Positions 11,627 to 59,510 of a stretch of 64,000 nt of DNA are shown here, in pieces. The DNA is taken from positions 1 to 64,000 of the IMG/VR virus record IMGVR_UViG_3300042691_032784. One strand, written 5' to 3'. The notes below the pieces were generated by a model that was not told where the DNA came from, did not search any database, and was given only the letters and a program-made list of their open reading frames with translations. A program made the position numbers and the translations under genes. The stretch is from a virus. The stretch's first letter is position 1. Every line of letters starts with the position of its first letter.

Positions 11627-14600
11627 ATGGATAATTTAAAAGAATCTACACCAAATACTGGTACAGATTTAACAAGTGATTTATTAGCTGAAATAACCTC
11701 AAAGAATTCTTTGGGGTTTTCTGCTGATAATAATAATGATACTGACCCTAAAAAGAAAACTAGTAAAGTAGAAACACCTACTGATAGTAAAACATTAGGT
11801 ATGCCTACTACTTCTTCTATAAGTTTATTAGATGGTATGTCAAGATTTGCACATCAAAGAGTAGAAGCGGGAGCAGAAAGAGATACTAAAGTTAATTTAG
11901 ATGAATTAGCTGGTTATCTTAATACTGATTTTATTAGTTCTCGAGAAGCTGCTTTTGGTGAACGTGCTAGAAATCAAAGTAATTGGGAACAAGCACGTAA
12001 TATGTTTGGTAGAATTGGTGCTAATGTATTACCTGAAGTTTTAAGTAATATAGTTAGTGCTTTTGACATTAATAGTTATTATGAAAATGAAAGCCAAATT
12101 AATAATACTGTTGTAGAGTATTTAAAATCTATACAAGATAATGTTAATAAAACATTACCTATATATAGAGAAAATCCGGATAAACCATTAGATATTGGAG
12201 ATGCTGCTTATTGGTTTGAATCAGGAGGTAATTTAGTTACTTCTGCTGTAGGATTTGTAGGAGCAGGTTACGTTACAGGTGGTGGAGTAGGTACTATTTT
12301 TAGTAAAGCTGGACAAGCAGCTAAATGGATAAATACATTAGGTAAAGCTACTAGATTAGGAGATAAAGGTATTAATACTGTTAGAGGTGCTACTACTTTA
12401 ACTAATGCCTTAATGTTAAATCAAGCAGAAAGTTTTGGAATAGGAGTAGATACTTATAATCAAGTTTATAATAATAAACTTACTGAATTAAGAGCAAATC
12501 CTGAAAATTCTAAATTAAGTGATGTTGAAATTGATACTCTTGCTAAACAAAAAGCTTCTGAAGCTGCTGCAAGTGCTATTAATTTTAATAGAATTAATAT
12601 TTTATTAAATCTTAGTAGTGCTAATTTATTCCTTAAAACTCCAATAGGAACTAGAGCTTTAATTGAAGCTCCTAGTAGATTAAAAACTTTAAAAGGTATT
12701 GGATTAGAAGGTTTACAAGAAGCTGCTGAAGAAAATATTAATATGATTGCTCAAAATCAAGCAGTAGAAGAAAATTATACATTTAAAGATGCATTAAATG
12801 ATGTTGGTAGTAGAGAAGGTCTTGAAAGTACTATATTAGGATTTATTGGTGGTGCGGGGCAAACGGCATTAACAAAAGCCGGTAAAATGTTACCTATTTA
12901 TAAAAATACGGCTTTCAGGAATGAATATAATAACGCCTATTCAAAGTTAATACAAGAGGGGTACTCTAGTGAGGAAGCGGATGCAAAAAGTCAGGAAATC
13001 GCTTTAAATAAGGTCAAGTCTAGTAGTAATCGTGTATCTGATAACTTTATAAGACAACAAAGGTATATATTACAACAACAACAAATAGAGGAAAATAATA
13101 ATTTAGGTAAAGTATCTAAAATTAATGATGTTACTTCTGTATTTTATAATGCACAAGAAGAAACTGAATTATATAATAATTTAGCTGATGCAGTTAAAGA
13201 AAAAGATACTATTAAAATTGAAACTTTACAAAATAGATTATTATATCATCAAGCATATAAAAATTTTGAACTTGGTACTACTGATAGTTTAATTGAATTA
13301 TATAATAGTTTAGGTAATTTATCTAAAGAAGAAGCAGAAGAAAAAGGTTTATATAATAGACAAGATGAAGGAACTGAAGATGATTATAGAACTAAAGCTA
13401 AAAATGCAGTTAAAACTATTGAACAATTAGAACGTATATATTTAGAAAGTAAAAAATATATAAATAGTAATGAAGTTTATGGTACTCAAGTAGAAAAATT
13501 AGATTTAGATACTAAAATTGAAAAAAGACAAAAAGAAGCATTAGCTGTTATTGAACAAGCTAAAGTTGATTTAAAAAATAAACCAGAATTTCTTCCTGGA
13601 GATACTTATTTAGTAGATGGTATTATTACTAGAGATAGTTTAAATAAAGTAACTCCTAGATTTAGACAAACTGGTGCATATAGAAAATTTAAAGATAAAG
13701 TTCTTTCATTAGGAATTTTACAAGATACTCATGCTAACGTTCAACAACATTTAGATAATATTACTCGTAAAGAATATCAAGATTTTTTAGCTAAAGTTTT
13801 TAAAGATATGAAAGAAGCTGAAGTTAATAAAAGAAAACAAAAAGATATTGATAATAAAAAGAAAGAAAGTAAAGATAAAATAAATAAAATTGTTAAAAAT
13901 ATTGAAAATAAAATAGATGTTTCCCCCGTAGAAAATAGTGTTGAGGTTGAAACTGATATTATAGGTAATGAAGTTGTAGAAGAAACAAATATACAAAATA
14001 ATGTTCCTGTTGTAGATATTCCTACTGAACAACAATCTACTATTGTAGAACCTATTAATAATAATCAATTAATTAATGATTTAAATATAACTGCTAATTT
14101 TCCTGTATTTAATGAACCTGAATTAGATAATAATTTACAAGCTATTAAAAATGCAGTAGAAAATCCTAATGAAGATGTAGATAAATTACATACTAATTTA
14201 ATTAATTTTACTAATAGTTTTAGTAATGCTTCCTTTAATCTCAAACAACAATATCCTCTATGGGGAAAAGATATTGATAGTACTATATCTGAACTTAATA
14301 GATTAATTAATATATTTAAAGATAAGATTAATTCTATTAATAATATTTCTTCTAATTTAAAACAAGATATTACAGGTTTTGTAGATGAATTATTTGAAGA
14401 TAATAATACTGATATTGAATCTGATGATAATCCTGATACAGTTCCTAATTTTGCAAAAACTCTTAAACAAGCTAAAGATTTATTTAATTTATTACAAAAA
14501 TTAAGTTCTGCTGGAGTAGATATTTATAATTTTAGAGAAGTTATAATTACTATGGAAAATGTAGTAGGAAAAGAAAATATAATTTCTGTTTTTAATAAAA

Positions 14601-17600
14601 TTAAAAATGTATATAATCTTGCATTAGAAACTAATATTGAAGGTTCATATGAAGAATTAATATTAGAAAAATATCAAAATAGAGGTTTATTAAATAGAGT
14701 TAAAAGATTATCTATGTTTAATATTCCTAAAGGTTTGTATAATTTTACTTTAGATAAAATTACTCAAGATAATTTAGAATTATTTAATACATTAGGTAAA
14801 TTACAAGGAATTAATGCAGAAACTTCTGGTTTTGTATTTAAAACTTATAATGAAACTGGTTCTAATCTTTTAGCTTATTTAAGTAAATTATATCAATTTG
14901 GTTTTACACCTAAACAAACTAATAATGGTGATTCTTATATTGAAGTTACTGAACAAGATATTAATAATTTACTTAATGATAAATTTGATAAAAGAATTTT
15001 AAGTCCTAAATTTTTAAATGTAGGAACTGAAATTACTTTTGTTCCTTTAAGTGAAGTAACTTTAGAAGATGGTACTATTTTAAGTAGAGCTAATACAACT
15101 ATAGATGATGCTCCTATTGGTATTAAAATTAATGATGAATTAATTGAAGGTTTATATTTGCATGATGTTAGTTGGATAAATGCTACTAGATTAAATAATA
15201 CTATTAAAGGTATAGAAGAAGACCAAAATAAATTACGTGCTTTACGTAAATATATATTAGAATCTGAAACTCCTATTAAAACTAAAATTATTAGTAGAAG
15301 TCCTGGTGTTCCTATTTTAGATTCTACTGCTCAATTAAAACCTGTTAATATTAATATGCCTGGTGTAGGTATTGTTATTTCTAAAAATGGTAAATTTTAT
15401 GATAGTAATGATACAGTAATACAAGCAGTTAATACAAAAGTTTTTGATGAAGGTAAAACTGGAATAGTTATTCCATTTGGTAAAAGTAAATTAGTACTAC
15501 CTGTTAAAAGAAATAAATTACAAGATGTTTATATTGATAGTATTATTTCTGCTTTAGAAACTTTTATAAAAGGTAAAAAGAATAATATTTCATCTGAAAT
15601 TGAAAAATTATTAGGTATTAATATATTAACTCAAAATGGTTTTGAAGAATATATTACTCAATTTATTCAAAATACTTATAGTACTAGTAAAAATTTTGAA
15701 GAATTTAAAGAATCATTAGAAACTGTTCCTGAAAGAGTAAATTTAATTAATTTTAGAAATGGAAATTTATATTATGGTTATGGTTTAAATGATAAATCTA
15801 ATTATATTAGTAAAAATAAATATGCTAATGTTAATGATTTTAATCAAGATATATTACACTTTAGACAACATTTAAAAGATACTTATTTTAATGTTAATTT
15901 AGATAATTTAAAATCTAATAAAAAAATAATATTAATTGAAAATAATGTAGTAACTTCTTATCAAGGAAATTATAATGATTTTGTATCTGAAAATTTATTA
16001 ACTTCTTATTTATCTTTTGAATTAGATAATGGAGAGCGTATTTATACTATTCAAAGTAAATTAAATTTTGATATTGATTCTACGGGATTTAATAGTATAG
16101 AAACTAATAAAAAAGAAGAGCAAATTAAATATGAAGAAAGTCAAAATACTGAAGTTGTTAAAGATATAAACACAAATCCAGGTATTCAAAAACTTCCTGA
16201 TGGTTCTACTTTTAATATAGATGAAATTGATTTTGATGCTAATCCTGATATAACAAATCAAGAAGAAATTAATTTTGATTATTTATTAGAATCTTCTAAT
16301 TTAATAAAAGGTGTTCCTATTAATATATATAATAATCTTATAGAATCTATTAGTAGTAGATTTTATACTGATGCTTTAGAAGAAAATCAAGAAGATAATA
16401 TATCTATTAAAAGTATTGAAAAAGAAGTTAACTTATTTATTCAAAGTTTAGAATTATTAAAAGATTCTTATAAAACTGCTTTTGAATTAGGTAGGGCTAT
16501 TAATTTAGAAGAAATTAATAATCAATTAGATGCTTTAATAAATAATAAAGAAAAAATTATTAAAGCTGTTAGAAAAAGAATAGCTAAAAAAGGAATGAAT
16601 TTAGCTACTATTTCTGATTTATCTGAAAATGATATTATTTTAACTAGAGAAGAATCAGATAAAAATAATTGGTTAGATATTGATTTTTATAAAGTTGACC
16701 CTAGAACTACACTAACTAAAGAAGTTAAAAACTTTTTAGAAGGTATTAAAGATTATAAAATAGTAAGAACTGAAAAAGGTGAAACTTATGTTCCTAAAAA
16801 GAATATACTTAATAATAATATAATTATTCCATTTGATAATATTTATATAACTCTTACTAAAATATTAGTAAAATCTAATGATAATATTATTAATTTAAAT
16901 TATGATACTGTTATTAAATTATTAAAAGAAGAATTATCAGTTAAACCTTATTTATTTGATGTTATTAATAAATTAGAAGAATCAGATAATCATTTTAAAA
17001 ATGCTTTTGTAACTAGTTTTAATAAACATCATAGTAATCATTTATATTTATCTGTTAATTATGATAATGTTAATAAAGAATATACTTTTATTCCTACTCC
17101 TGCTAGTTCTAAAAATATTAGTAATTTAGTATTATCTGAATGGCAAAATAATTTAAAATACAAAAATGTTTTTATTCAAGATGGTAATACTGTAAAAATT
17201 AATAAAGAATTTATTAAACAATTTGAAAAACAATATGAAGCTATTTTAAATAATCCTCAGTTAATTAATAGAACTAAAGATTGGTTAGAATCTATAGGTA
17301 TTGTTATTCCTGATATTGTTCAAAATAATTTTATGCTTTATGGTATGTATAGAGATGGACAATTACTTACTATGCATCAACATTTTGACTTATCTAATGG
17401 TATTTTTAAAAATATTAAAAATAGAATAGTTCAATTTGCTAATGATAATAAAGAAGTAAATCCAGAAGTAGAATATGATATAAATACTTTAAATGTATTT
17501 TCAGATAGTTCTATTACTGATTTAGCTAAAACAGTAGCTAAATATAGAAATGATTTATTTCAAGATAATTTTAAAAATGGTAATGGTGATACTGTTCATA

Positions 17601-20600
17601 GTTATGTTAATAATAAATATGCTATTGATAGATTTTTTAAATTAAAAGATGATAATTTATCATTACAATATTTATTAGATATACCTTATAGTGCTGGTTC
17701 TATTTGGTTTAATAATTTAATTAAAACTAATGATGAGGGTATTAGATATTTAAATAAAGAAGGTATTATGTATAAATATTTTAAATATTATACAGCTGAT
17801 AGTATTAAATATCAAAATAATAAATTAGGTAAAGTTATTGATACTTTATCTGAATCTCAATTAGAAGATTTTAAATTAGGTTTATTTTTAAATAGAGGAC
17901 TTAAAGTAGGTAAAGGTAATAATAAAATTCCTATAATGAAAGTTTTATATCCTACTATGTCTGATAAAAGTAATATTTTTATTTTTCAAGTACCTAGAGT
18001 AGAATATAAATTTCCTAATGGTAAGTTATCAGATAATGATAGACTAGATTTAGTTAAAATATTATTTTATCCTGAAATAGATAGAATTAAACAATATCAA
18101 CTTAAAAAAGGTAATTTTAATAATAAAGAATATAATAAAGGGGGTGGAAGATTTATTAGTTTTCCTCTTTTAAATGATATAAAAGAATTATGGAATGAAG
18201 ATGGTACTTTAAAAGAAGAAGTAGGAACTTTAGCTGAATATGATGTTATATTAACTAAACAATTAAGTAGAATATTATCTAATATTATTCAAGAAAAAAG
18301 ACAAGTTTGGAAAGATGCAGGTATTATTAAAACTAATAAAAAAGGTGAAGAATATCTTAAAATAGATAAAGATTATAAAAATGAATTTGGTAATAATGTA
18401 GATAGTATATTAAAAAATTATGTTATTAATACTACTATAGCTAATCTTAATTTTCAACAATTATTTATAGGTGACCCTGCTTTATTTACTAAAGATGCTA
18501 ATATTAAATCTGATTCAAGTTTAATAAATGAAGTTGGTCAAAATATAGCTAATTCTATTATTACTTCTGATAATCAAGGTAAACGTTTAGCTATGGATAA
18601 TGCAGGTAAAGTTTCTATTATTGCTGAAGAAAATGAAACTTTAAATTGGTTAGTTATAGATGATGTTAAAATGAAAAGTACTGCTAGTACTTATATCGAA
18701 TCTTTATTTAAAGGAACTAATGTTGTAGATAAATATAATTCTATTGATGCTTCTGATGCTCAAGAATATACTACTTTAGAAGAACATTTAAAAGTTATGT
18801 TTAAAGCAGGTAAAATTACTGAAGATAATATGAATAGAATATTAGATATTTATAATAAAACTGGTAAAGTTGAATTATCTGATAAAAATATGATATTACA
18901 GCCTATGAAACCTGTATATGGTAATAATTTTTTATATAATGATATAGATACTAGACTTTATGTTAAATCATCTTCTATTCCTTTAATAGCTGAATTGACA
19001 AAAGATACTGCATTAGATGGATTACGTTTATTAATGGAAGGTAGTAGTGGAACTAAAATTGATAGAGTTGCATTTGCTTCTGCTGTTAAAGTAGGTCAAC
19101 CTGCTAATATTCCACAAGTATTTACTGATAATGGTAATACTTTTAAACTTCCTAAAGATTGGAGAAAAGGATTGTTATTAGGTATTCCTAGAGAAGGTCA
19201 TGGTATACAACAAGAAGTTCCTTATGATGAAGATAAAAATGAAGTAAATGATGGAACTCAACAAAGTAAGTTATTGTTTAATAATATATTAGATGTTGAA
19301 GGTTTTATACATCCTGAAACAGGAGAATCTGTAAATGGTAGAACTTTATTAGAAAGTTATAATAATAATTATAAACAATTATTTTTTAATAAATATGATA
19401 AATTATTAAAAGATTTAGATTTTAATACTGAATCTGGACAAATTGGTAATTTATCTAAATTAAAAAATATATTAGTTGAAGAAGGATTAGCTAGAAATTA
19501 TAATATTAATGATATTAATAGTTTTTCTTTAGATGAATTAGCTTTGAATTTTTCTGTTCCTATTTGGTTAAATAATTCTGAAAATAAAATTAGTGCTTTA
19601 TTAAATTCTATTGTAGATAATAGAATTAGAAAAAGAAAAGTTAGAGGTAAATCATTTGTATTAGCCTCACAAGTAGGATTAGGAACTATTGATAGTATTA
19701 ATGAAAATAATATTATTAAACATCCTAATTGGGATGGTACTTTAAAAGCTAGTATGGAAAAAGATGGAACTATTACTTATGCAGAAGTTTTAGTACCTTT
19801 TAAATTTTGGAATAGTGAAGGTAATAGTTTAAAAATTCAAGATTTTATTAAAGATGGTGTTATTGATATTAATAAAATACCTGAACAATTATTAACTTCT
19901 TTTGGTTATCGTATTCCTACACAAGGTTTAAATAGTATGAGTACTATAAAAATTGTTGGATTTTTACCTGATTCTTATGAAGATATTGTAATAGCTCCTG
20001 CAGATTTTGTAATTCAAATGGGTTCTGATTTTGACGTAGATAAATTATATACTCATATGTATAAATCTACTTATAATGAAGATACTAAATCTTTAGAAAT
20101 TATTAGTAAAAAACATTTAAATAAAAAGAATACTATTAAAAATAGTATTGAAATTATTAATAAAAGACTTAAAGATTTACGAAATGAATTAGGTAGTAAA
20201 ACTGCTATTTTAGATAAAAATAAAGCTTTAAGATTAAATACAGCTGAAAATATTCAAAAAGAAATTGATATTTTACAAGTTAAAATATATGCTTTTGTAT
20301 CTCAACGTAATATATTTTTATCTAATAATTTATTGAATATGGATATAGAAAATTCTATATTAGAAAATAATATTTTAGATATTCATTTTTCTGTATTAAA
20401 TAATCCTGCTAAAGAAGTACAAAAAGCTAGAATTAATCCATTAGGTTTTGGTAATTTACCATCTTTAGTTAATAAAGTATCTAAAAATATTAATAAAACT
20501 ACTTTTAGTCCTTTTAATGATAACTACCAAAGTTATAAATATACAAATGCTAGGGCTGGTAAAAATGCAGTAGGTTTATTTTCATTAGATAGTGTTTTTA

Positions 20601-23600
20601 ATGCAGTATTACAATATATTGAAGGTAATGTTAATTTTTATAAAACTACTAAAGAAGGTATTGAAATTGATTATAATTTAAATATAGCAGGATATAATAA
20701 TGTTAATTTAAATAATCCTAATAGTAGTGTACCAGGAAAATATAAATCTGATGTTATTTCTGCTTTTCAATCAGCCGCATTAGATAATGAAAAAGAACAA
20801 TTATTAGGTAAATTAAATATAAATAGTAATACTTTTGATACTATTAGAGCTATGTCTTTAATGGGATTTGATGAAAATATTATTATTGCTTTTATAAATC
20901 AACCTATAATTATAGAGTATTTTAATAAAGCTATTGAAATTCCTAGTTTTAATGAAAATTTTAAAATATTATTAAAGAAAACTTCATTAGAAAAAATGTT
21001 TAATAATATTAAAGATGGAAATATAGATACTGAATATCAAAAAGCTGTATTATATTATTTTAATGATTTAAGTAATAAAGGTGCTATATTAAAACAAATA
21101 CAAAGTACTATTAATTCAGATAGTAGCGGTATTGGTAAAAATTTCTTTTATTCATTAACTAAAGGAGACCAAATTTTAACATTACCTAAATATGATAGTG
21201 ATATTAGAAATATTAGTAAATTAATTGGAGATTATTCTACTTCCCCTTTAGAAGATAGTGTTGATTACAAAGGTACTTATATTAAACCTAATAGTATTAG
21301 TGGTTTTGCTTCTACTTTTGGAGTATTAACTAATAATAAATTATGGAATAATTTTTATCTTTATAATAAAGGTAAAATTAGAGCTATATTTACAGCAATA
21401 ATAGAAAGTCAAAATGAAACTTATAATACTATTCAGAAACAAGCTGATGCACTTAATAGAGTTACTAATTCTTTTAAATCTTTCTTAAGTTCCAACACAT
21501 TCCATCTATGGGGAAAAGACACACAAACTGTAAATGATTTAAGATATAATTTATTATATGATACTGAAACTAATATGAGTTTAGGTTCTATAATTAATAA
21601 TTTAACTCAAAAAGATAAACCTTTTACTAATCCATTATTAGATAGATTACAAATAGGTAGAAATAATGTTACTAATACCTTTTTAGGTAGAATACCTACT
21701 GTTATTAATTATTATAATGCAGGAAGTATTGAAATGAATGAAGAAATTATTATTAATAGTATTATTGATATGTTAGTTAATAATACTTATTTAGGTGTAT
21801 ATAATAATAAAAATTATACTACTCGTAATTTAGCAGAAGATTTAATAGCTTATCAAATGATTACTAGTGGTATACAACAATCTAATAATTTTATTAAATT
21901 TATACCTATTGAGTATTTAAAAAATATAGGATATTATAATAATATGATTGCTAATTATCAATTATTTACTAATGAAGATTTTGTAAATAGTGTATCAGAA
22001 GCATTTTATACTCAATATATTCAACATAATCCTGATGAATTTTATAATGAAGAGATAGCTAAAAATTATGAAGTAGTTGATGGAAAATTATTTAGTAATG
22101 GTACTATTAAAAGACCTTTAGTAGTTTTATCTGGTTTAATGCCTAATAGTTATAGAATTTTTAAATATAATAAAGATATTAAAGATTTTGTTGAATTAGA
22201 CACTTTAGGATATAAAGGATTACAAGAGTATGATATGTGGTCTAGTTTCGCTGGTAAAAGTACTGTTTATATTCAACAAGTAAATAATAATATTGATGTA
22301 TTAAATAAATCTAATTTACCTGTATTTATTAATAATAAATTTAAAGAACCTAATACAGAATATATTCCGGATGAAAAAAATATTAATGATTTTCTTTCAT
22401 TAGATAGAGATACTGAACAAGATAATTCTCCTTTAGTATATAATACTAATACTTCTGATTTAAGTAAAAAATATTATTTAACTGATACATCTTTACCTAT
22501 TGCAGAAAAATATAAACATATTTTACGTAAAATTAGAAAAAATTCTGATAATACTATTTTATCTTATTTTGCAGGTAAAGTTTCTGAAATAATACCAGTA
22601 TTAAATGATATACCTTTATATGTAGATACTAATTTACAAGCTAAGGGTAGATTATATAAAAGTAAAGTATTTGGTGAACCTTATCAAATTAGAATTAATC
22701 CTAATAAGATAAAAACAGAAGAAGAATTACAAAGAGTTTTATTAGAAGAAATAGTTCATGCTATTACTGCTATGGAAGTTGATAAAGGTAACTCTACTTT
22801 TATTAAAAATTTAGAATTATTAAGACAAGATGCTATTAAATTTGCTAAATCTAAATATGGAGAAGGTATAATTGATATAGTTAATGATAAAGTAAAAACT
22901 AAAAAACCTTTAATTACTGGTACTGAAAGTAATATTATTTATAATTTAAGTAATTTACAAGAATTTATAGCAGCTTCTATAAATAATGTAGAATTTCAGA
23001 AGTTTTTAAATAGTATTAATGTTTCTGATAAAACTAAATCATTATGGAAAAGATTAATAGATGCTATTACATCATTATTAGAAAGTTTAGGAGTTAAAAA
23101 AGATAGTAATTTATCAGTAGCTTTACATGAAATTATTAATTTATTTGATAATGTAATAAAACCTACTATATATAGTAATTTTAATAAACCTAAATTTGTA
23201 AGAACTGTAGAGTATCTTAATAATAAATTTAATTTAGTTAATAATGAAGGTATTTTAATTCAAAAAGCTAATGCTGAACAAATTGTTAATTTTATTAATA
23301 ATAATATCGTAAATGTAATAGCAAAAGAACAAAATGGTACTGTTATAATTGAACCTAATAGATTAATTGATTATTCTTTTGATTCTAATTATGAAACTGA
23401 ATATGAAATTATTGAATCTACTCCTGTTAATTTTCCTTCTTATAAACAAGCATTAGAATTAAGAGTTAAAAAATTAAGAACTGCTATTAAAAAAGCAAAA
23501 GATGAAGATAATTTTGTTAGAGTAAGTCAATTAGACGAAGTCTATAAAAAAGATAAAGATTTATTAAGTCGTATTGATGATATTAATTTTTTAGGAGATA

Positions 23601-26600
23601 TTGCAGATAAAGGTGAACAAGATTTACAAGTAGTTAATGATATGTTAAAAAGACCTTTAACTTCTGAAGATATTGTTTATGCTAGAAGTATTATTAATTT
23701 TTGGAAAAATTCTAAAGAGTTATTATTTAATGATATTGCTAAAAAATCTAAAATATTAGTAGAAGCTTTTACTGATTTAGAAGTAGAAGCAGGATTTTTA
23801 GCTGATGAATTATTAAGAATTGAGAAAGAATTTTTACAAGAATTTGTTAAAAAATATATAGGTAAAGAAACTGATATAGATAAAATATTTGAAGATTATA
23901 AAGATATTAATTTTTTACAATCTAATTTTAGAGATATTAGTACTTATGATAATGAAATTTTAACTTCTATTTGGAGTGCTGTTAAACAAGCTAATATTAA
24001 TGCTCAAGATGAATTTAATCAAAAATTAGAAGGTTTTGATAAATTATTAGATAAAGTACTACCTATATTAAAATCTTTTGGTAATAAAGAATTATTTGAA
24101 GTTTTTAGACAAAAGAAAACTAATGGTAAGTTAACTGGACATTTAGTTAATCCTTATTCTAATTTATTTTATAAAGATAAAAATAAAGTTATTAGTAATT
24201 TAATTAAAGATAATAAATTTGAAAATTATATTAATTTAACTAATTTTATTAAAACTGTTGGAGAAAATACTAATTTAAGTTTAATTTTTCCTGCTAATGG
24301 TGAAATAACTGATGAGGTTATTAAAGCAAGAGAAGAATTAAAAAATAAATTAGGTCAAGGTGCTTATAATCTTTATATTAAAAAACAAGAAAAAAGATTA
24401 AAATCTTATCAAGAACATAAAGATGGTTATATTGAAGTATTATTAGATAGATATAATTTAAAAGATAGAGAAGATATTTTAAATAATGAAGAAGCTAAAA
24501 GAAAATATGAAAATTGGCAACTAGCTAATAGTCCATATGAATTAGAAAAACATTCATTTAATAAAATTAATAATAGATTAAGTAATTTTACTGATTTTCA
24601 ATCTCATAAATTTTATGAAATTATACCTATTAAAGAAGATAAAACAATTAATTATTTTGATAGTAATTTTGATATTATTAGTAATAATAATGATTTATAT
24701 GAATTTTATTCTTTTATTGAAAGTACTTTTGATGACCTTAGAAAGTTTGTTCCTGATGAACAACAAAAAGCTTTAGCTTATGGTGGTTTACCTTATATTG
24801 AAAAGACTTTAATAGAGATGTTTAATGAAAGAGGTATGCATTTAGGTTATAAACCTATTTATGATGCTTTTATTGAATCTATGCAAAGTTCATTTTCTGA
24901 TAATACTAATGCTGTTCTTGACCCTGTTACCGGACAACCTGAACAAGATATGAGAATACCTATTATTAAAGATAATTATCAATTTGTTAAAGATTATATT
25001 AATAAAAGAACTATTGAATATGTATCTATTAATAAAAAACAACCTAGTGTTGAATATATACAAGAATTTGAAGAAGATGCAGTTCATGAATACTCTCAAA
25101 AGAAATCTTTTGATTTAGGTAAAGTAGTTAAATCTTATACTGCTTTAGTATTAGCTCATAAACATAAAGCTAAAATTGAAGATAGTATTAAAATTGCTAA
25201 TACTGTAATAGATTCTTATAAAGAATCTTATTATAGACCTGATGGTATACCAATTACTAATAAAAGTGGTATTATTATGAAAAAACAAGAATCTGAATCT
25301 TTTCTTAAATTAAAAGAAGCTTTAGATAATTATACTAAAGCTAATATTTATAATGATATTAGAGAAGAAGAAGGTAAAGGTAAAAAGATATTAACACCTA
25401 CTGAAAAAGAAGAGAAGAAAGATTTAGAAAATAAATTAGAGCAATTACAAGAAGATTTAGCTAATAATGTTATAACACAAGAAGATTATGATACTACATT
25501 TAATTTAATTGTAGAACAATTAGCTAATCAAGGTAAAACTTTTATATATTCTAAAGCAGGTGATAATATGCTTAAATATTTACAACTTAAATTAATGGGT
25601 TGGAATGTATTAGGAGGTATTAGTAATATGGGATTTGGTTGGATTGCTAATTATATTGAAGCTGCTGATGGTAGATTATATAGTAAACGTAATTTAAACT
25701 ATGGTTATAAATTAGTGTTAAATAGTATTGGTAAAAATGTAAGTTTTAATTATAATACAGGATTATATAATTCTGAAACAGCCAATAAAATTAGAAGTGC
25801 TATGGATAAATGGGATGTATTAAAAGATGCTTCTAATGAATTATATACTAATACTACATCTAATAGTTTTAATAAAAGATTAAAATGGTTAGCTCCTTAT
25901 AATATGCAACAACGTACTGAATATATAAATCAAGCACCTTTATTAATTGCTTTAGCTAAAGAAACTAAAGTTAATACAATTAAAGGAGAAGTTAGTATTT
26001 GGGATGCTATGGATAATGATTTTAATTGGAATACTGCTGAATATGGAGAAGCTCCAACTGAAGTTATTACTAAATTAAGACTTAAATTAGATCAAATAAT
26101 TAAACGTAATCATGGTAATTATGACCCTTTATCTACTATTAATGCTAAAAGAACTTTTTTAGGTAGAGCAGGATTACAATTTAGAACTTGGATGTTAGAA
26201 GCTATTGCAGTTAGAGCTGAAAAAGAAAGATTTGATGATATATTAGGAATTACTGTAAAAGGTAGATATAGAAGTGTGGGTACTGTTTATAGTAATACTA
26301 ATATAGGTAAATTTGCTTTAGAATTTTTTAAAGGTCTAATAAATAAATATAGTTTTGGTTTATATAAAAATGGTAATTTTGAAGGATTAGTAGATGGAGA
26401 AAATATTAAAGAAGTTGATGCTGCTAATATGAGAAAAGTTATTACTGAAGTTAGTATGGCTATTAATTTATATATTTTATTACTTCTTGCAGCAGGATTA
26501 AAAGATGATGATGATGAAAATAATGCAGCATTAAATGTATTAATGAATCAAGGTATTAGATTAAGAACAGATTTATTATTATATGTTAATCCTATGGAAG

Positions 26601-26824
26601 CAAGAAATTTAATTAGAGATATTATTCCTGCTACTGCAATTATTAAAGATATTTGGGAATGGATTGAATCTGTTGGTACTTTAGTAATTGGAGAAGATGA
26701 AATTAAAGCTGGTGTACATAGTGGTAATAGTAAATTTGTTAAAGAAACTTTACAAATGTTACCATTTGGAACTAAAGCATATTCATTATATAATTCAAGT
26801 ACACAAGTATTTGAAAAACGATAA
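11627..26824 (+). CDS. giant virion RNA polymerase polyprotein (5065 aa)
   Basis: A single 5065-residue reading frame. The catalytic signature DFDVD is at residues 2801-2805 (context GSDFDVDKLYTH). It matches the DxDxD metal-binding motif (DFDID type) of the crAss-like virion RNA polymerase typified by phi14:2 gp66, a YonO-like single-chain double-psi beta-barrel enzyme that is ejected to transcribe early genes. K2488 (ASAVKVGQ) is a candidate for the partner-barrel lysine. Other parts: a glycine-rich hydrophobic stretch near residues 198-230, a degenerate zincin (EEIVH, residues 3707-3711), long charged coiled-coil regions, and a hydrophobic segment (NLYILLLLAAGL) near the C-terminus. The flanking regions probably carry other ejection functions. 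It contains four motif copies and a codon-usage island near 12.85-13.07 kb. Confidence 0.85.
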   Translation: MDNLKESTPNTGTDLTSDLLAEITSKNSLGFSADNNNDTDPKKKTSKVETPTDSKTLGMPTTSSISLLDGMSRFAHQRVEAGAERDTKVNLDELAGYLNTDFISSREAAFGERARNQSNWEQARNMFGRIGANVLPEVLSNIVSAFDINSYYENESQINNTVVEYLKSIQDNVNKTLPIYRENPDKPLDIGDAAYWFESGGNLVTSAVGFVGAGYVTGGGVGTIFSKAGQAAKWINTLGKATRLGDKGINTVRGATTLTNALMLNQAESFGIGVDTYNQVYNNKLTELRANPENSKLSDVEIDTLAKQKASEAAASAINFNRINILLNLSSANLFLKTPIGTRALIEAPSRLKTLKGIGLEGLQEAAEENINMIAQNQAVEENYTFKDALNDVGSREGLESTILGFIGGAGQTALTKAGKMLPIYKNTAFRNEYNNAYSKLIQEGYSSEEADAKSQEIALNKVKSSSNRVSDNFIRQQRYILQQQQIEENNNLGKVSKINDVTSVFYNAQEETELYNNLADAVKEKDTIKIETLQNRLLYHQAYKNFELGTTDSLIELYNSLGNLSKEEAEEKGLYNRQDEGTEDDYRTKAKNAVKTIEQLERIYLESKKYINSNEVYGTQVEKLDLDTKIEKRQKEALAVIEQAKVDLKNKPEFLPGDTYLVDGIITRDSLNKVTPRFRQTGAYRKFKDKVLSLGILQDTHANVQQHLDNITRKEYQDFLAKVFKDMKEAEVNKRKQKDIDNKKKESKDKINKIVKNIENKIDVSPVENSVEVETDIIGNEVVEETNIQNNVPVVDIPTEQQSTIVEPINNNQLINDLNITANFPVFNEPELDNNLQAIKNAVENPNEDVDKLHTNLINFTNSFSNASFNLKQQYPLWGKDIDSTISELNRLINIFKDKINSINNISSNLKQDITGFVDELFEDNNTDIESDDNPDTVPNFAKTLKQAKDLFNLLQKLSSAGVDIYNFREVIITMENVVGKENIISVFNKIKNVYNLALETNIEGSYEELILEKYQNRGLLNRVKRLSMFNIPKGLYNFTLDKITQDNLELFNTLGKLQGINAETSGFVFKTYNETGSNLLAYLSKLYQFGFTPKQTNNGDSYIEVTEQDINNLLNDKFDKRILSPKFLNVGTEITFVPLSEVTLEDGTILSRANTTIDDAPIGIKINDELIEGLYLHDVSWINATRLNNTIKGIEEDQNKLRALRKYILESETPIKTKIISRSPGVPILDSTAQLKPVNINMPGVGIVISKNGKFYDSNDTVIQAVNTKVFDEGKTGIVIPFGKSKLVLPVKRNKLQDVYIDSIISALETFIKGKKNNISSEIEKLLGINILTQNGFEEYITQFIQNTYSTSKNFEEFKESLETVPERVNLINFRNGNLYYGYGLNDKSNYISKNKYANVNDFNQDILHFRQHLKDTYFNVNLDNLKSNKKIILIENNVVTSYQGNYNDFVSENLLTSYLSFELDNGERIYTIQSKLNFDIDSTGFNSIETNKKEEQIKYEESQNTEVVKDINTNPGIQKLPDGSTFNIDEIDFDANPDITNQEEINFDYLLESSNLIKGVPINIYNNLIESISSRFYTDALEENQEDNISIKSIEKEVNLFIQSLELLKDSYKTAFELGRAINLEEINNQLDALINNKEKIIKAVRKRIAKKGMNLATISDLSENDIILTREESDKNNWLDIDFYKVDPRTTLTKEVKNFLEGIKDYKIVRTEKGETYVPKKNILNNNIIIPFDNIYITLTKILVKSNDNIINLNYDTVIKLLKEELSVKPYLFDVINKLEESDNHFKNAFVTSFNKHHSNHLYLSVNYDNVNKEYTFIPTPASSKNISNLVLSEWQNNLKYKNVFIQDGNTVKINKEFIKQFEKQYEAILNNPQLINRTKDWLESIGIVIPDIVQNNFMLYGMYRDGQLLTMHQHFDLSNGIFKNIKNRIVQFANDNKEVNPEVEYDINTLNVFSDSSITDLAKTVAKYRNDLFQDNFKNGNGDTVHSYVNNKYAIDRFFKLKDDNLSLQYLLDIPYSAGSIWFNNLIKTNDEGIRYLNKEGIMYKYFKYYTADSIKYQNNKLGKVIDTLSESQLEDFKLGLFLNRGLKVGKGNNKIPIMKVLYPTMSDKSNIFIFQVPRVEYKFPNGKLSDNDRLDLVKILFYPEIDRIKQYQLKKGNFNNKEYNKGGGRFISFPLLNDIKELWNEDGTLKEEVGTLAEYDVILTKQLSRILSNIIQEKRQVWKDAGIIKTNKKGEEYLKIDKDYKNEFGNNVDSILKNYVINTTIANLNFQQLFIGDPALFTKDANIKSDSSLINEVGQNIANSIITSDNQGKRLAMDNAGKVSIIAEENETLNWLVIDDVKMKSTASTYIESLFKGTNVVDKYNSIDASDAQEYTTLEEHLKVMFKAGKITEDNMNRILDIYNKTGKVELSDKNMILQPMKPVYGNNFLYNDIDTRLYVKSSSIPLIAELTKDTALDGLRLLMEGSSGTKIDRVAFASAVKVGQPANIPQVFTDNGNTFKLPKDWRKGLLLGIPREGHGIQQEVPYDEDKNEVNDGTQQSKLLFNNILDVEGFIHPETGESVNGRTLLESYNNNYKQLFFNKYDKLLKDLDFNTESGQIGNLSKLKNILVEEGLARNYNINDINSFSLDELALNFSVPIWLNNSENKISALLNSIVDNRIRKRKVRGKSFVLASQVGLGTIDSINENNIIKHPNWDGTLKASMEKDGTITYAEVLVPFKFWNSEGNSLKIQDFIKDGVIDINKIPEQLLTSFGYRIPTQGLNSMSTIKIVGFLPDSYEDIVIAPADFVIQMGSDFDVDKLYTHMYKSTYNEDTKSLEIISKKHLNKKNTIKNSIEIINKRLKDLRNELGSKTAILDKNKALRLNTAENIQKEIDILQVKIYAFVSQRNIFLSNNLLNMDIENSILENNILDIHFSVLNNPAKEVQKARINPLGFGNLPSLVNKVSKNINKTTFSPFNDNYQSYKYTNARAGKNAVGLFSLDSVFNAVLQYIEGNVNFYKTTKEGIEIDYNLNIAGYNNVNLNNPNSSVPGKYKSDVISAFQSAALDNEKEQLLGKLNINSNTFDTIRAMSLMGFDENIIIAFINQPIIIEYFNKAIEIPSFNENFKILLKKTSLEKMFNNIKDGNIDTEYQKAVLYYFNDLSNKGAILKQIQSTINSDSSGIGKNFFYSLTKGDQILTLPKYDSDIRNISKLIGDYSTSPLEDSVDYKGTYIKPNSISGFASTFGVLTNNKLWNNFYLYNKGKIRAIFTAIIESQNETYNTIQKQADALNRVTNSFKSFLSSNTFHLWGKDTQTVNDLRYNLLYDTETNMSLGSIINNLTQKDKPFTNPLLDRLQIGRNNVTNTFLGRIPTVINYYNAGSIEMNEEIIINSIIDMLVNNTYLGVYNNKNYTTRNLAEDLIAYQMITSGIQQSNNFIKFIPIEYLKNIGYYNNMIANYQLFTNEDFVNSVSEAFYTQYIQHNPDEFYNEEIAKNYEVVDGKLFSNGTIKRPLVVLSGLMPNSYRIFKYNKDIKDFVELDTLGYKGLQEYDMWSSFAGKSTVYIQQVNNNIDVLNKSNLPVFINNKFKEPNTEYIPDEKNINDFLSLDRDTEQDNSPLVYNTNTSDLSKKYYLTDTSLPIAEKYKHILRKIRKNSDNTILSYFAGKVSEIIPVLNDIPLYVDTNLQAKGRLYKSKVFGEPYQIRINPNKIKTEEELQRVLLEEIVHAITAMEVDKGNSTFIKNLELLRQDAIKFAKSKYGEGIIDIVNDKVKTKKPLITGTESNIIYNLSNLQEFIAASINNVEFQKFLNSINVSDKTKSLWKRLIDAITSLLESLGVKKDSNLSVALHEIINLFDNVIKPTIYSNFNKPKFVRTVEYLNNKFNLVNNEGILIQKANAEQIVNFINNNIVNVIAKEQNGTVIIEPNRLIDYSFDSNYETEYEIIESTPVNFPSYKQALELRVKKLRTAIKKAKDEDNFVRVSQLDEVYKKDKDLLSRIDDINFLGDIADKGEQDLQVVNDMLKRPLTSEDIVYARSIINFWKNSKELLFNDIAKKSKILVEAFTDLEVEAGFLADELLRIEKEFLQEFVKKYIGKETDIDKIFEDYKDINFLQSNFRDISTYDNEILTSIWSAVKQANINAQDEFNQKLEGFDKLLDKVLPILKSFGNKELFEVFRQKKTNGKLTGHLVNPYSNLFYKDKNKVISNLIKDNKFENYINLTNFIKTVGENTNLSLIFPANGEITDEVIKAREELKNKLGQGAYNLYIKKQEKRLKSYQEHKDGYIEVLLDRYNLKDREDILNNEEAKRKYENWQLANSPYELEKHSFNKINNRLSNFTDFQSHKFYEIIPIKEDKTINYFDSNFDIISNNNDLYEFYSFIESTFDDLRKFVPDEQQKALAYGGLPYIEKTLIEMFNERGMHLGYKPIYDAFIESMQSSFSDNTNAVLDPVTGQPEQDMRIPIIKDNYQFVKDYINKRTIEYVSINKKQPSVEYIQEFEEDAVHEYSQKKSFDLGKVVKSYTALVLAHKHKAKIEDSIKIANTVIDSYKESYYRPDGIPITNKSGIIMKKQESESFLKLKEALDNYTKANIYNDIREEEGKGKKILTPTEKEEKKDLENKLEQLQEDLANNVITQEDYDTTFNLIVEQLANQGKTFIYSKAGDNMLKYLQLKLMGWNVLGGISNMGFGWIANYIEAADGRLYSKRNLNYGYKLVLNSIGKNVSFNYNTGLYNSETANKIRSAMDKWDVLKDASNELYTNTTSNSFNKRLKWLAPYNMQQRTEYINQAPLLIALAKETKVNTIKGEVSIWDAMDNDFNWNTAEYGEAPTEVITKLRLKLDQIIKRNHGNYDPLSTINAKRTFLGRAGLQFRTWMLEAIAVRAEKERFDDILGITVKGRYRSVGTVYSNTNIGKFALEFFKGLINKYSFGLYKNGNFEGLVDGENIKEVDAANMRKVITEVSMAINLYILLLLAAGLKDDDDENNAALNVLMNQGIRLRTDLLLYVNPMEARNLIRDIIPATAIIKDIWEWIESVGTLVIGEDEIKAGVHSGNSKFVKETLQMLPFGTKAYSLYNSSTQVFEKR
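11696..11719. repeat. 24-bp near-perfect palindrome inside CDS
   Basis: AACCTCAAAGAATTCTTTGG followed by GGTT is self-complementary except for one G-T position. It lies about 70 bp into the giant polymerase gene and could form a cruciform or an mRNA hairpin close to the start. Confidence 0.65.
12852..13065 (+). other. codon-usage island within the giant polymerase gene
   Basis: The frame stays open, but codons that are rare in the rest of the gene cluster here: GCG, ACG, GCC, AAG, GAG, CAG, AGG, GGG, GTC and ATC. On both sides nearly every residue uses an A- or T-ending codon. The encoded segment runs from about residue 410 to 480 and looks like ordinary helical sequence (for example AGKMLPIYKNTAFRNEY). 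The cause could be recombination with another genome or an overlapping DNA/RNA signal. Confidence 0.65.
13920..13945 (-). repeat. dispersed paired motif, copy 4 (reverse)
   Basis: Plus strand TTTCCCCCGTAGAAAATAG then TGTTGAGG. Encoded as S-P-V-E-N-S-V-E. Paired with the forward copy at 14245 (starts 325 bp apart). Confidence 0.85.
14245..14269 (+). repeat. dispersed paired motif, copy 5 (forward)
   Basis: Reads ACAACAATATCCTCTATGGG then GAAAA. Encoded as Y-P-L-W-G-K-D, a different frame from most forward copies. Partner of the copy at 13920. Confidence 0.85.
21241..21265 (-). repeat. dispersed paired motif, copy 6 (reverse)
   Basis: Plus strand TTCCCCTTTAGAAGATAGTG then TTGAT. Encoded as S-P-L-E-D-S-V-D. 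Paired with the forward copy at 21490 (starts 249 bp apart). Confidence 0.85.
21490..21517 (+). repeat. dispersed paired motif, copy 7 (forward)
   Basis: Reads TTCCAACACATTCCATCTAT then GGGGAAAA. Encoded as F-H-L-W-G-K-D, the same frame as copy 5. Partner of the copy at 21241. Confidence 0.85.
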
Positions 26825-56098: not shown

Positions 56099-56374
56099 TT
56101 AAGGATTAAAAGTTATAATTGATTCATATCTTATTATTCCATCTATTTCATATCTTTTTGATATTTTAAAAGGTATATTAAAATCTTTAGCATCAAATAA
56201 GTTATGTATTAATTCTTTAGCTTTATTATGTGGTAATATAATAGATTTAAAGTTTATATCATTACCTGCTATAAAATTAATAAGTGGAAGGTCTGATGTA
56301 ATGTCTACTTCATATACTTGGTCAGTAGATATTGATAGTTTTGTGTAAAGTTTGTCTGATTTATTTAAGTACAT
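56099..56374 (-). CDS. small hypothetical protein (91 aa)
   Basis: Begins MYLNKSDKLYTKLSISTDQV; alternating strands and one helix (HNKAKELIHNLFDA). It is directly downstream of the 231-nt tract that is G-free on the coding strand, which would form its leader. No family recognised. Confidence 0.6.
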   Translation of the reverse strand: MYLNKSDKLYTKLSISTDQVYEVDITSDLPLINFIAGNDINFKSIILPHNKAKELIHNLFDAKDFNIPFKISKRYEIDGIIRYESIITFNP

Positions 56375-56392: not shown

Positions 56393-56623
56393 TGTTAGTA
56401 TTATGTTTTGTGGTGTAGGTAAGTGGTTGATATTGAGTTAATAAGGGTTTAGGTGGTTTTTTGGGATTAATAGAATGAGTTAATGTATTATTAGAGTGAT
56501 TAATATGGTTATTATTGGGTTTATGAGTGTGTGTAGGATTAGAGTTATGGTTGTTAGGATTAGGGAGATTTTGGTGTGAATTAGTAGGTAGATGAGTAGA
56601 TGAATTATTATATGTTGTTATTA
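56393..56623 (-). other. 231-nt tract without any C on plus strand
   Basis: Contains G, T and A only (GTGGTGTAGGTAAGTGGTTG is typical). On the minus strand it is G-free and lies just upstream of the 91-residue gene. The chance of this in ordinary sequence is negligible even at this low GC. Confidence 0.9.
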
Positions 56624-56699
56624 CTATGAGTTATGGCAACTTAAGTAATTATATAAATAACGGTACATATAACTCAGGGTCTACGTGCTTATGCCTATG

Positions 56700-56798
56700 T
56701 CTTCTTTTACTCTTACAATCAACTCTAACACTACAACCCCATCTACTCCAACACCTAATCTCCCCTCTCCATTTTAACCAATAACTAATCAATCAACA
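56700..56798 (+). other. 99-nt tract without any G on plus strand
   Basis: C-rich (for example ACTACAACCCCATCTACTCC). It begins at the right edge of the core, mirroring the C-free tract on the other side. Confidence 0.85.
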
Positions 56799-56929
56799 GT
56801 ACTATGCCCATAATAAATCAAATTACCTAGTTAGTAATTTAATAATCAATCAATAGTAATATAACCACAATATTCTACTGCCCAAACAATAGAATTTAAT
56901 CAATCTTTAGTAATATATCAAACTTAATA

Positions 56930-57379
56930 TTATGTAGGCTTATTAGCCTTTAAATTATCAGGATAATTACTATTATCTTCTTTTTTAATAAACATATCAC
57001 CATGACCTTTAAAAGATTCTTCCTCAGTAACAGGTCTAGTTCTTAAATCACTTAATGGTCTATTCATATCATGATTACGTTTATCTTTTTTATCTTGTAA
57101 TATTTTATTCATAACATCAGCAAAATCTTTAATATCTTTTATTGCTTTATTTAGTTTAGTATAATACATAATAATATTATGTAAACATACTGCACCTAAT
57201 GTTAAATTAACAACATTAAGAATAATTAAAGCAATTAAAGCATAAAGTCTTGCTAAAGTGGTTCTAACATTAACATCATCAAGAGTGATAATATTAAATG
57301 TGTGTGTTAGAATTAATACTTCGAATAGTAATACTAATAATAGTATTGAATAGAATGGAATAAGTTTATGAATTTTCAT
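56930..57379 (-). CDS. two-TM membrane protein
   Basis: 149 residues. Helices at about 8-27 (FYSILLLVLLFEVLILTHTF) and 44-72 (YALIALIILNVVNLTLGAVC) are followed by a charged cytoplasmic tail (KAIKDIKDFADVMNKILQDK; DMNRPLSDLRTRPVTEEESF). No family recognised. Flanked by non-coding regions on both sides, so probably expressed alone. Confidence 0.7.
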   Translation of the reverse strand: MKIHKLIPFYSILLLVLLFEVLILTHTFNIITLDDVNVRTTLARLYALIALIILNVVNLTLGAVCLHNIIMYYTKLNKAIKDIKDFADVMNKILQDKKDKRNHDMNRPLSDLRTRPVTEEESFKGHGDMFIKKEDNSNYPDNLKANKPT

Positions 57380-57437
57380 TTTGATTATGTTTTAAATTAT
57401 TTGTTTTATTAATACTTCGTTTACTTTTACAACCAGA

Positions 57438-57469
57438 AGCATACTCGCCACATATGTAGCGAATATGCT
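57438..57469. repeat. hairpin between minus genes
   Basis: AGCATACTCGC and GCGAATATGCT pair over 11 positions with one mismatch, around CACATATGTA, which is itself nearly palindromic. It lies between the stop at 57502 and the start at 57379. It may be a terminator without a clear U-run. Confidence 0.5.
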
Positions 57470-57501
57470 TGATTGTTATAGCCCGTACCTATTGTATGAG
57501 C

Positions 57502-58134
57502 TTATTTTTTGTTACCTTTTCCGGCAGGTTTACCAAAAGCTTCTGTTTCTACTTCATCTTCTTCTTCAGCTTCAGAAGTATAACCTGCAAAAGGATTAGG
57601 TTGAGCAACAGGTTGAGCAACAGGTTGAGCAACGGCACCAAAAGAACTAATACCCATAGATGCTAAAAAGCCTTTACCAATGGTATTAGCAATAGCTAAA
57701 CGAGTTAGTTCCATATCAGTCAATGGAATATCCATAAAACCTTCAATACGTTGTCCGTCTTGTTGATAAGCAACTCTATCACCAATCTTTACTTTACCAC
57801 TCAATTCATGAGTAGTAGTAGTAATAGCAGGATGTTTTTCATCGATAATATAAGTATCGCCTGCTTTATGATAAGAGATTTCAGTAGTTGCAATAGCACC
57901 TCTACAAGCATGTAATTCAGCTGTAAATTGAGGGTCTTCAACACTCACAACACCAATAGCTCTACCGCTGTTTTGAAGAGAGATAAGAGCTTGTTGAGGA
58001 TTAACAACAATATCCGGATGTCTAGTAACCATACCATTAGTAACTTGGTCAACTGCAAAAATAACAACAGGACGTTTAACTTTAGTGTTCATAGGAATGA
58101 TACGAACTCCATTAATTCTAAATTGTGTTTTCAT
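57502..58134 (-). CDS. conserved-type abundant protein with PVAQ repeats
   Basis: 210 residues from the ATG at 58134; an upstream GTG at 58176 would add a hydrophobic, less likely N-terminus. A beta-rich body (KRPVVIFAVDQVTNGMVTRH; KVKIGDRVAYQQDGQRIEG) is followed by AVAQPVAQPVAQP and an acidic then basic tail (EEEDEVETEA, GKPAGKGNKK). Codons are more GC-rich than neighbours, as at 41.3 kb, suggesting high expression. It is the first minus-strand gene beside the divergent region. Function not recognised. Confidence 0.7.
   Translation of the reverse strand: MKTQFRINGVRIIPMNTKVKRPVVIFAVDQVTNGMVTRHPDIVVNPQQALISLQNSGRAIGVVSVEDPQFTAELHACRGAIATTEISYHKAGDTYIIDEKHPAITTTTHELSGKVKIGDRVAYQQDGQRIEGFMDIPLTDMELTRLAIANTIGKGFLASMGISSFGAVAQPVAQPVAQPNPFAGYTSEAEEEDEVETEAFGKPAGKGNKK
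57599..57634. repeat. 12-bp tandem repeat, 3 copies
   Basis: GGTTGAGCAACA at 57599-57610 and 57611-57622, with a third copy ending in G (57623-57634). Encodes the A-Q-P-V linker repeat. Confidence 0.9.
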
Positions 58135-58270: not shown

Positions 58271-58364
58271 TGCTTTGTAGAGATTTAAGCAAAGTAGTAC
58301 GGGTACTTCAAAACCTCCAAAACTTAGTAGGGGTCTTTATTAGGGTGGGTTCACGTATACGGGG

Positions 58365-58555
58365 TTAACTATATATTCCTATTAATCCACATACAACTCC
58401 TCCTCCAACAATCAACTCCATCAAACTAACCTCCTCCTAAACCAACATCACCAAATCTAACCAAACTAATCCTACCAAAACCTCATCAACTTAACCAAAT
58501 AAAACCTTTATCAACATTACAAACTTTTACAACTCTACCATCACTACTAAAAAAA
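58365..58555 (+). other. 191-nt tract without any G on plus strand
   Basis: Contains only A, C and T (for example ACTCCTCCTCCAACAATCAA). Preceded by a G-run-rich stretch (AGTAGGGG, TAGGGTGGG, ACGGGG), so GC skew reverses sharply near 58365. It points toward the plus-strand genes. Confidence 0.9.
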
Positions 58556-58781
58556 GTTATATTAGTGAGTTACTATACAGCATTAACATATTAACTACTA
58601 TTACCATTATCACCACTATTAAAAATTTTGTTAATATTATGTTAAAATATTATTAATTATTTGTATATTACATTTTATTTATTATATTAAGATTATATAA
58701 TACTAATTATTAATCAATAAAACAAATATATATATATAATTTAACAAAAATTTAACAATTAAATATAGTCGATTTAAGAGA

Positions 58782-58991: not shown

Positions 58992-59510
58992 ATGAAAGAA
59001 ACAATTAATCCTATTAATGTTAAAGTTCCTCAAGAACTTATTAACTATCGTCTTCAAGCTAAATCTATATTAGCTTTTTGTACTAATCAAGCTTATGCTA
59101 ATAATCAAAAATTTTCATATAGTATTGAATTTAAAAAAGGAGAACAAGCTATCACTTATGATAATGTAAATTATATTAAACATTATTATACTTTTAGTTT
59201 AATACTTCTTAATAAAAATACAAGTATTATTGGTCAAAGAATTGAATTATATGTAACACACTACCCAATTTCTATGGGGGAAAATAGTATTACTTTAGAA
59301 AAATTAGCATATAAAGATTTCTTTACTAATGCTATTGCTTCTCTTATTAATAATACTTATGCTATGTATATAAATTCTTTACAAAAAGATTTAGTTAAAC
59401 CAGAAGATGTAACTTCTGAAGATGCTGAAAGAGAAGCTGCTATTATTAAAAATAGAATTGAATCAGGTATTACTGAAGAAGAAAAACCAAAACTTATTAT
59501 AACTAAATAA
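58992..59510 (+). CDS. hypothetical protein, first gene of plus block
   Basis: 172 residues; begins MKETINPINVKVPQELINYR. Mixed alpha/beta, acidic helical C-terminus (EDAEREAAIIKNRIESGITE). The frame is open upstream to 58905 but has no other ATG. It lies 6 bp before the IHF-like gene. Motif copy 17 is encoded as Y-P-I-S-M-G-E-N. Function unknown. Confidence 0.75.
   Translation: MKETINPINVKVPQELINYRLQAKSILAFCTNQAYANNQKFSYSIEFKKGEQAITYDNVNYIKHYYTFSLILLNKNTSIIGQRIELYVTHYPISMGENSITLEKLAYKDFFTNAIASLINNTYAMYINSLQKDLVKPEDVTSEDAEREAAIIKNRIESGITEEEKPKLIITK
59253..59284 (+). repeat. dispersed paired motif, copy 17 (forward)
   Basis: Reads GTAACACACTACCCAATTTC then TATGGGGGAAAA. Partner of copy 16 (starts 471 bp apart). 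Confidence 0.85.

Follow-up and report, generated by a model that had tools for sequence, protein, structure and literature searches.

The stretch of DNA examined here (the window) comprises 64,000 nucleotides, positions 1 to 64,000 of the 81,152-bp IMG/VR record IMGVR_UViG_3300042691_032784, and it derives from a crAss-like phage. Its terminase (TerL) matches Crassvirales at about 30% identity, its PolA matches those of crAss-like phages, and the gene order around the muzzle gene is the same as that of crAss001; a hit to the muzzle domain crAss_MUZ_C was weak and fell below the cutoff. In addition, a single 5,065-aa ORF occupies the place of the crAss virion RNA polymerase gene and contains a motif, MGSDFDVDKLY, that by eye resembles the metal-binding DxDxD motif of crAss-type RNA polymerases. 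The two main gene blocks of this genome diverge from a short region that carries a (-) strand cassette of two genes (Table 1). The leftward block contains PolA, helicases, ligase, and Thy1, while the rightward block contains the terminase followed by genes of portal and capsid size. Cassette gene 1 is SSB-like, although the structural evidence is weak: its predicted model (pLDDT 73) returned several OB-fold single-stranded DNA-binding proteins, but only among weak, nonsignificant Foldseek hits, and the gene at the same position in crAssphage is annotated as a putative SSB. Each exit of the cassette is marked by a long tract that, on the strand reading outward, contains no G.

Table 1. Features of the divergence region and other features of the window (window coordinates)
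Position	Strand	Feature	Remarks
11627-26824	+	5,065-aa ORF	In the place of the crAss virion RNA polymerase gene
56099-56374	-	First gene after the left tract	Start of the replication-side operon
56393-56623	-	Left outward tract, 231 nt, C-free on +	G-free and C-rich (30% C) in leftward RNA; directly upstream of the replication-side operon; A 0.26, G 0.30, T 0.44 on +
56624-56699		Core of the left site, 76 bp	Skew switch scored at 56636
56626-56784	+	52-aa ORF	Overlaps the core and the inner arm
56700-56798		Inner arm of the left site, 99 nt, G-free on +	C 0.36; C-free and G-rich in the leftward direction; partly complementary to the outer tract
56786-56926		Three imperfect 30-nt direct repeats (TAATCAATCAAYAGTAMTAT..)	Spacing 57 and 54; between the inner arm and the cassette
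56930-57379	-	Cassette gene 2, small membrane protein, 149 aa	N-terminal hydrophobic segment read from the sequence; a gene of similar kind lies at this place in relatives
57437-57470		90% palindrome (21-nt arms, overlapping)	Between the cassette genes; possible operator or terminator
57502-58134	-	Cassette gene 1, SSB-like protein, 210 aa	Weak structural evidence
58300-58375	+	Conserved late-side element, ACGGGg..CCAAAA..GGGGT-N8-GGGTG..TATATA	Promoter-like; ends at the start of the right tract
58365-58555	+	Right outward tract, 191 nt, G-free	C 0.33; upstream of the late (structural) operon
58740-58757		TTTAACA-N4-TTTAACA repeat	Between the right tract and the late genes
58992-59510	+	First gene after the right tract	Start of the late operon
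62420	+	Terminase	In the late operon

Composition of the tracts

To determine whether the tracts could arise by chance, we compared them with several null models. The original prediction described a C-free run and a G-free run around a 76-bp core, and we found that this observation is correct to the base, the runs being bounded by C/C and G/G. Under independent base composition, the expected number of C-free runs of at least 231 nt is 6e-9, and in 60 order-3 Markov simulations of the window the longest C-free run was 128 nt and the longest G-free run was 103 nt. The 99-nt run alone is only marginal (expectation, 0.019), but its C content is not explained by low GC. The original prediction missed an equal partner, the right outward tract, for which the corresponding expectation is 1e-7; 100 dinucleotide shuffles gave no G-free stretch of 177 nt, against 70 overlapping matches found. 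Because the base that remains is enriched in each tract, the tracts are richer in G+C than the 24 to 25% genome, and low GC is not the cause.

We next asked whether coding or known RNA could account for these tracts. The original claim that no ORF explains the asymmetry holds for the two long tracts; the 52-aa ORF has no counterpart in the relatives, and no conserved ORF covers the tracts. Searches for tRNAs and Rfam families found none in the window or in five relatives. The left tract is only 56% purine, which led us to reject a polypurine or triplex DNA explanation. As RNA, both outward tracts have a predicted minimum free energy (MFE) of 0 kcal/mol. The late-side element showed no supported RNA fold, with three or four predicted pairs and negligible covariation.

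Conservation in related phages

Searches of viral contigs with the cassette and HU/IHF-like proteins returned no close relatives; relatives were identified through PolA and TerL. Recurrence of the asymmetry in relatives had been proposed as the check on this feature, and we found the same asymmetry in the same place, without sequence identity, in relatives down to about 30% terminase identity. Every relative that covers the sites (11 genomes) carries both tracts, about 3.6 to 4.1 kb and 5.6 to 6.2 kb upstream of TerL, and the fragments that reach only part of the region (relatives L045 and L051) show the right one. Outward tracts measure 82 to 330 nt, allowing up to 4 G. All five Intestiviridae tested, including the human-gut crAssphage (ZA), have the feature. 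The Crevaviridae phage cr127_1 has a comparable cassette, with about 1 kb of 1 to 5 G per 100 nt on the late side and, on the other side, about 200 nt almost without C followed by about 400 nt almost without G. In contrast, four Suoliviridae, three Steigviridae, Fpv1, and three distant IMG/VR genomes show no such long tract. Apparent G-to-C switches in phi14:2 and cr50 are short ordinary hairpins; thus, we do not claim the feature there.

To rank these sites genome-wide, we scored every switch from G-rich (100 nt) to C-rich (150 nt) sequence. The two sites rank first and second in all complete window-lineage and Intestiviridae genomes, 1.4 to 2.5 kb apart, whereas in cr127_1 only the early (left) site leads. 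In the mean outward profile over 15 to 16 genomes, G falls from about 0.29 to 0.02 at the switch and C rises from 0.07-0.16 to 0.35-0.37, although the switch points were chosen to maximize this step. The two sites differ in anatomy: the early site has a long C-poor, G-rich inner arm, while the late site instead has the conserved element with G clusters and a TATATA-like box where the tract begins.

Phylogenetic footprinting in seven relatives revealed conserved blocks before and after the right tract but no alignable tract, and the left tract behaved alike in six. One of these blocks is the TTTAACA repeat, which is invariant in seven relatives as TTTAACAwAATTTTAACA with a conserved TGCCC-TA block just upstream in them, and which may be a promoter or initiator site. 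Among seven crAssphage strains, the C-rich arm has 74% mean identity with 46 of 85 columns variable, yet only 2 variable columns ever hold G, while 41 hold C; in the G-rich arm, 2 of 37 variable columns ever hold C. In the neighboring downstream control, 20 of 92 columns hold G and 65 of 92 hold C (Fisher P values of 0.007 and 2e-12). Thus, the composition is conserved while the sequence is not. We consider a mutational origin, in which deamination of the inward-exposed strand stripped C from one strand on each side, to be very unlikely. This process could produce the sign of the asymmetry, but G on the C-free side and C on the G-free side are raised two- to threefold over the genome average, which loss of C to T cannot do; the tracts are richer in G+C than their surroundings; and persistence across families argues for selection.

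The complementarity of the early-site arms raised the possibility that this site is a degenerate long inverted repeat that forms an RNA or DNA hairpin, such as a processing signal, terminator, or cruciform. With arms anchored at the switch, a genome's own arms paired better than cross-genome arms at the early site (mean residual, -7.4 kcal/mol; P = 0.009) but not at the late site. Arm shuffling gave a z score of -4.0 in the window and about -2 or below in seven more genomes, but several genomes showed no excess, including crAssphage ZA, cr127_1, and relatives L048 to L050 and L052. An earlier test with less well anchored arms was negative, and the C-rich arm turns over without compensating change in the other arm. 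Thus, the evidence for pairing is moderate, and the hairpin reading as a whole is unlikely. In one clade of relatives (L049, L050, L053, and L054), about 400 nt of serial strong hairpins precede the left G-free tract; in L050 (positions 4145 to 4640, - strand), the stretch folds better than all 100 shuffles (z = -2.8) and has no Rfam match, and it is possibly a structured phage ncRNA.

Possible functions of the tracts

Collectively, these data establish that at both exits of the cassette, between it and the outward operon, the strand reading outward 5' to 3' is C-rich, practically G-free, and structure-free for about 80 to 500 nt, with a sharp switch from G-rich to C-rich sequence at its start, and that this composition is kept while the letters turn over. 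That the tracts are transcribed outward, what loads on this strand, and any dependence on Rho are inferred. The interpretation in the original prediction was partly supported. Unstructured leaders for divergent transcripts, as it proposed, fit the larger picture, but the actual pair of outward leaders would be the left and right outward tracts, whereas its 99-nt tract is the cassette-side arm of the left site and is antisense to the cassette in the rightward direction. Its suggestion of an R-loop or origin is neither shown nor excluded: outward C-rich RNA on a G-rich template disfavors R-loops in the long tracts, but the G-rich inner arm and the position near the GC-skew minimum keep the origin reading alive.

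We favor, tentatively (probability of about one in three), a model in which the tracts are cis-acting leader elements selected for composition, serving as the landing strip of a ring-shaped 5'-to-3' translocase. In this view, they would be transcribed outward as 5' leaders and act as exceptionally strong Rho-utilization (rut) sites, so that host RNA polymerase entering the replication or late operon would be terminated by Rho unless a phage factor, a phage polymerase, or masking of the C-rich strand by pairing with the G-rich inner arm lets it pass, gating the two operons in time. Each tract sits at an operon entrance with outward polarity in every window-lineage genome covering the sites and in Intestiviridae and Crevaviridae, the late-side tracts start at a conserved promoter-like element, and turnover of sequence under constant composition is expected if recognition is by composition, as for Rho. 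Also, late genes in Crassvirales are thought to be transcribed by host RNA polymerase (PMC10136315). However, YC dinucleotides, which Rho favors without strictly requiring them, were near expectation in most tracts and thus not enriched beyond composition; zero G over 200 nt is more extreme than rut sites need; and the long G-rich inner arm at the early site is only loosely explained.

Alternatively, the pair may mark a bidirectional replication origin, a reading that we consider nearly as good and equally tentative. Each outward-reading strand would be the lagging-strand template of the outward fork, kept G-free and structure-free for loading a 5'-to-3' replicative helicase, and the G-rich inner arm and G clusters may favor transcription-primed (R-loop) initiation, helped by the SSB-like gene in between. 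In all eight genomes analyzed in this way, the minimum of the detrended cumulative GC skew lies within about 0.5 to 2.5 kb of the late site, which fits an origin at least as well as Rho gating, although skew follows gene strand here and the minimum is therefore confounded. A gene annotated as a putative RepL replication initiator lies beside, and partly overlaps, the late-side C-rich, G-poor tract in crAssphage ZA (MK238400, 96778 to 97632), and the leftward operon encodes replication proteins. Outward polarity suits helicase loading, and composition-only conservation and the strand-symmetric switch fit a DNA function. The 30-nt repeats lie beside the left site and the TTTAACA repeat lies between the right tract and the late genes, but either is at most a putative initiator-binding repeat. 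On the other hand, two sites 1.4 to 2.5 kb apart are odd for one origin, each sits at an operon entrance, and the late one adjoins a promoter-like element.

A plain 5' untranslated leader, kept free of structure to aid polymerase escape, RNA stability, or ribosome standby, or suited to the phage virion RNA polymerase as a G-less initially transcribed region, would account for the predicted lack of structure, the position at operon entrances, and the start at a promoter-like element without Rho. We consider this unlikely, since the tracts often end 100 to 400 nt before the first gene (436 nt on the right side of the window) and since enrichment of C to 30 to 40% is not needed for lack of structure; A/U-rich RNA would do.

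More broadly, it is possible, though less likely than not, that these sites form a composition-coded cis element in several Crassvirales lineages, which must keep the outward-reading strand C-rich and G-free while its letters drift freely. Such an element would be read by a phage or host ring translocase, either Rho on RNA or a replicative helicase on DNA, and would be the main switch point, perhaps the origin, of crAssphage-type genomes. Neither the origin of replication nor the control of early and late operons is known for crAssphage, one of the most abundant viruses of the human gut, and the pair lies exactly where an origin or transcription switch should be. A review of Crassvirales describes skew-defined replichores and calls the mode of replication unknown (PMC10136315). 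Literature searches on crAss origins, intergenic elements, C-rich G-poor leaders, and G-free leaders found no description of this feature among open-licence papers, so the absence of an earlier report is not proven. An element conserved by composition while its sequence changes is invisible to alignment-based searches; thus, others may have been missed.

We compared the sites with four known systems. Like rut sites of Rho-dependent terminators, the tracts would yield C-rich, G-poor, unstructured untranslated RNA of 80 nt or more, and rut sites are likewise recognized by composition rather than sequence; however, 0% G over 150 to 300 nt is far more extreme, and the tracts are paired at both exits of a phage cassette and often preceded by a G-rich, C-free arm. 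The lambda early control region, in which pL and pR leaders with nut and rut sites flank a central regulator, similarly has a central cassette with divergent operons, each entered through a leader able to carry a termination or antitermination signal, but we found no boxA/boxB-type or put-type RNA, as there was no Rfam match and no covarying fold in the late-side core. R-loop or transcription-primed origins (ColE1, mitochondrial CSBII, and T4 ori) would share with these sites a G-rich transcribed stretch that ends abruptly and a position near a GC-skew minimum, which is confounded here with gene strand, but here G-rich RNA on a C-rich template would arise only from the inner arm of the early site, the long conserved part has the reverse bias, and there are two sites. 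Finally, the TMV omega leader is a long, G-free, unstructured leader, as the tracts would be if transcribed outward, but it belongs to an unrelated system of eukaryotic translation, and the tracts described here usually do not abut the start codon.
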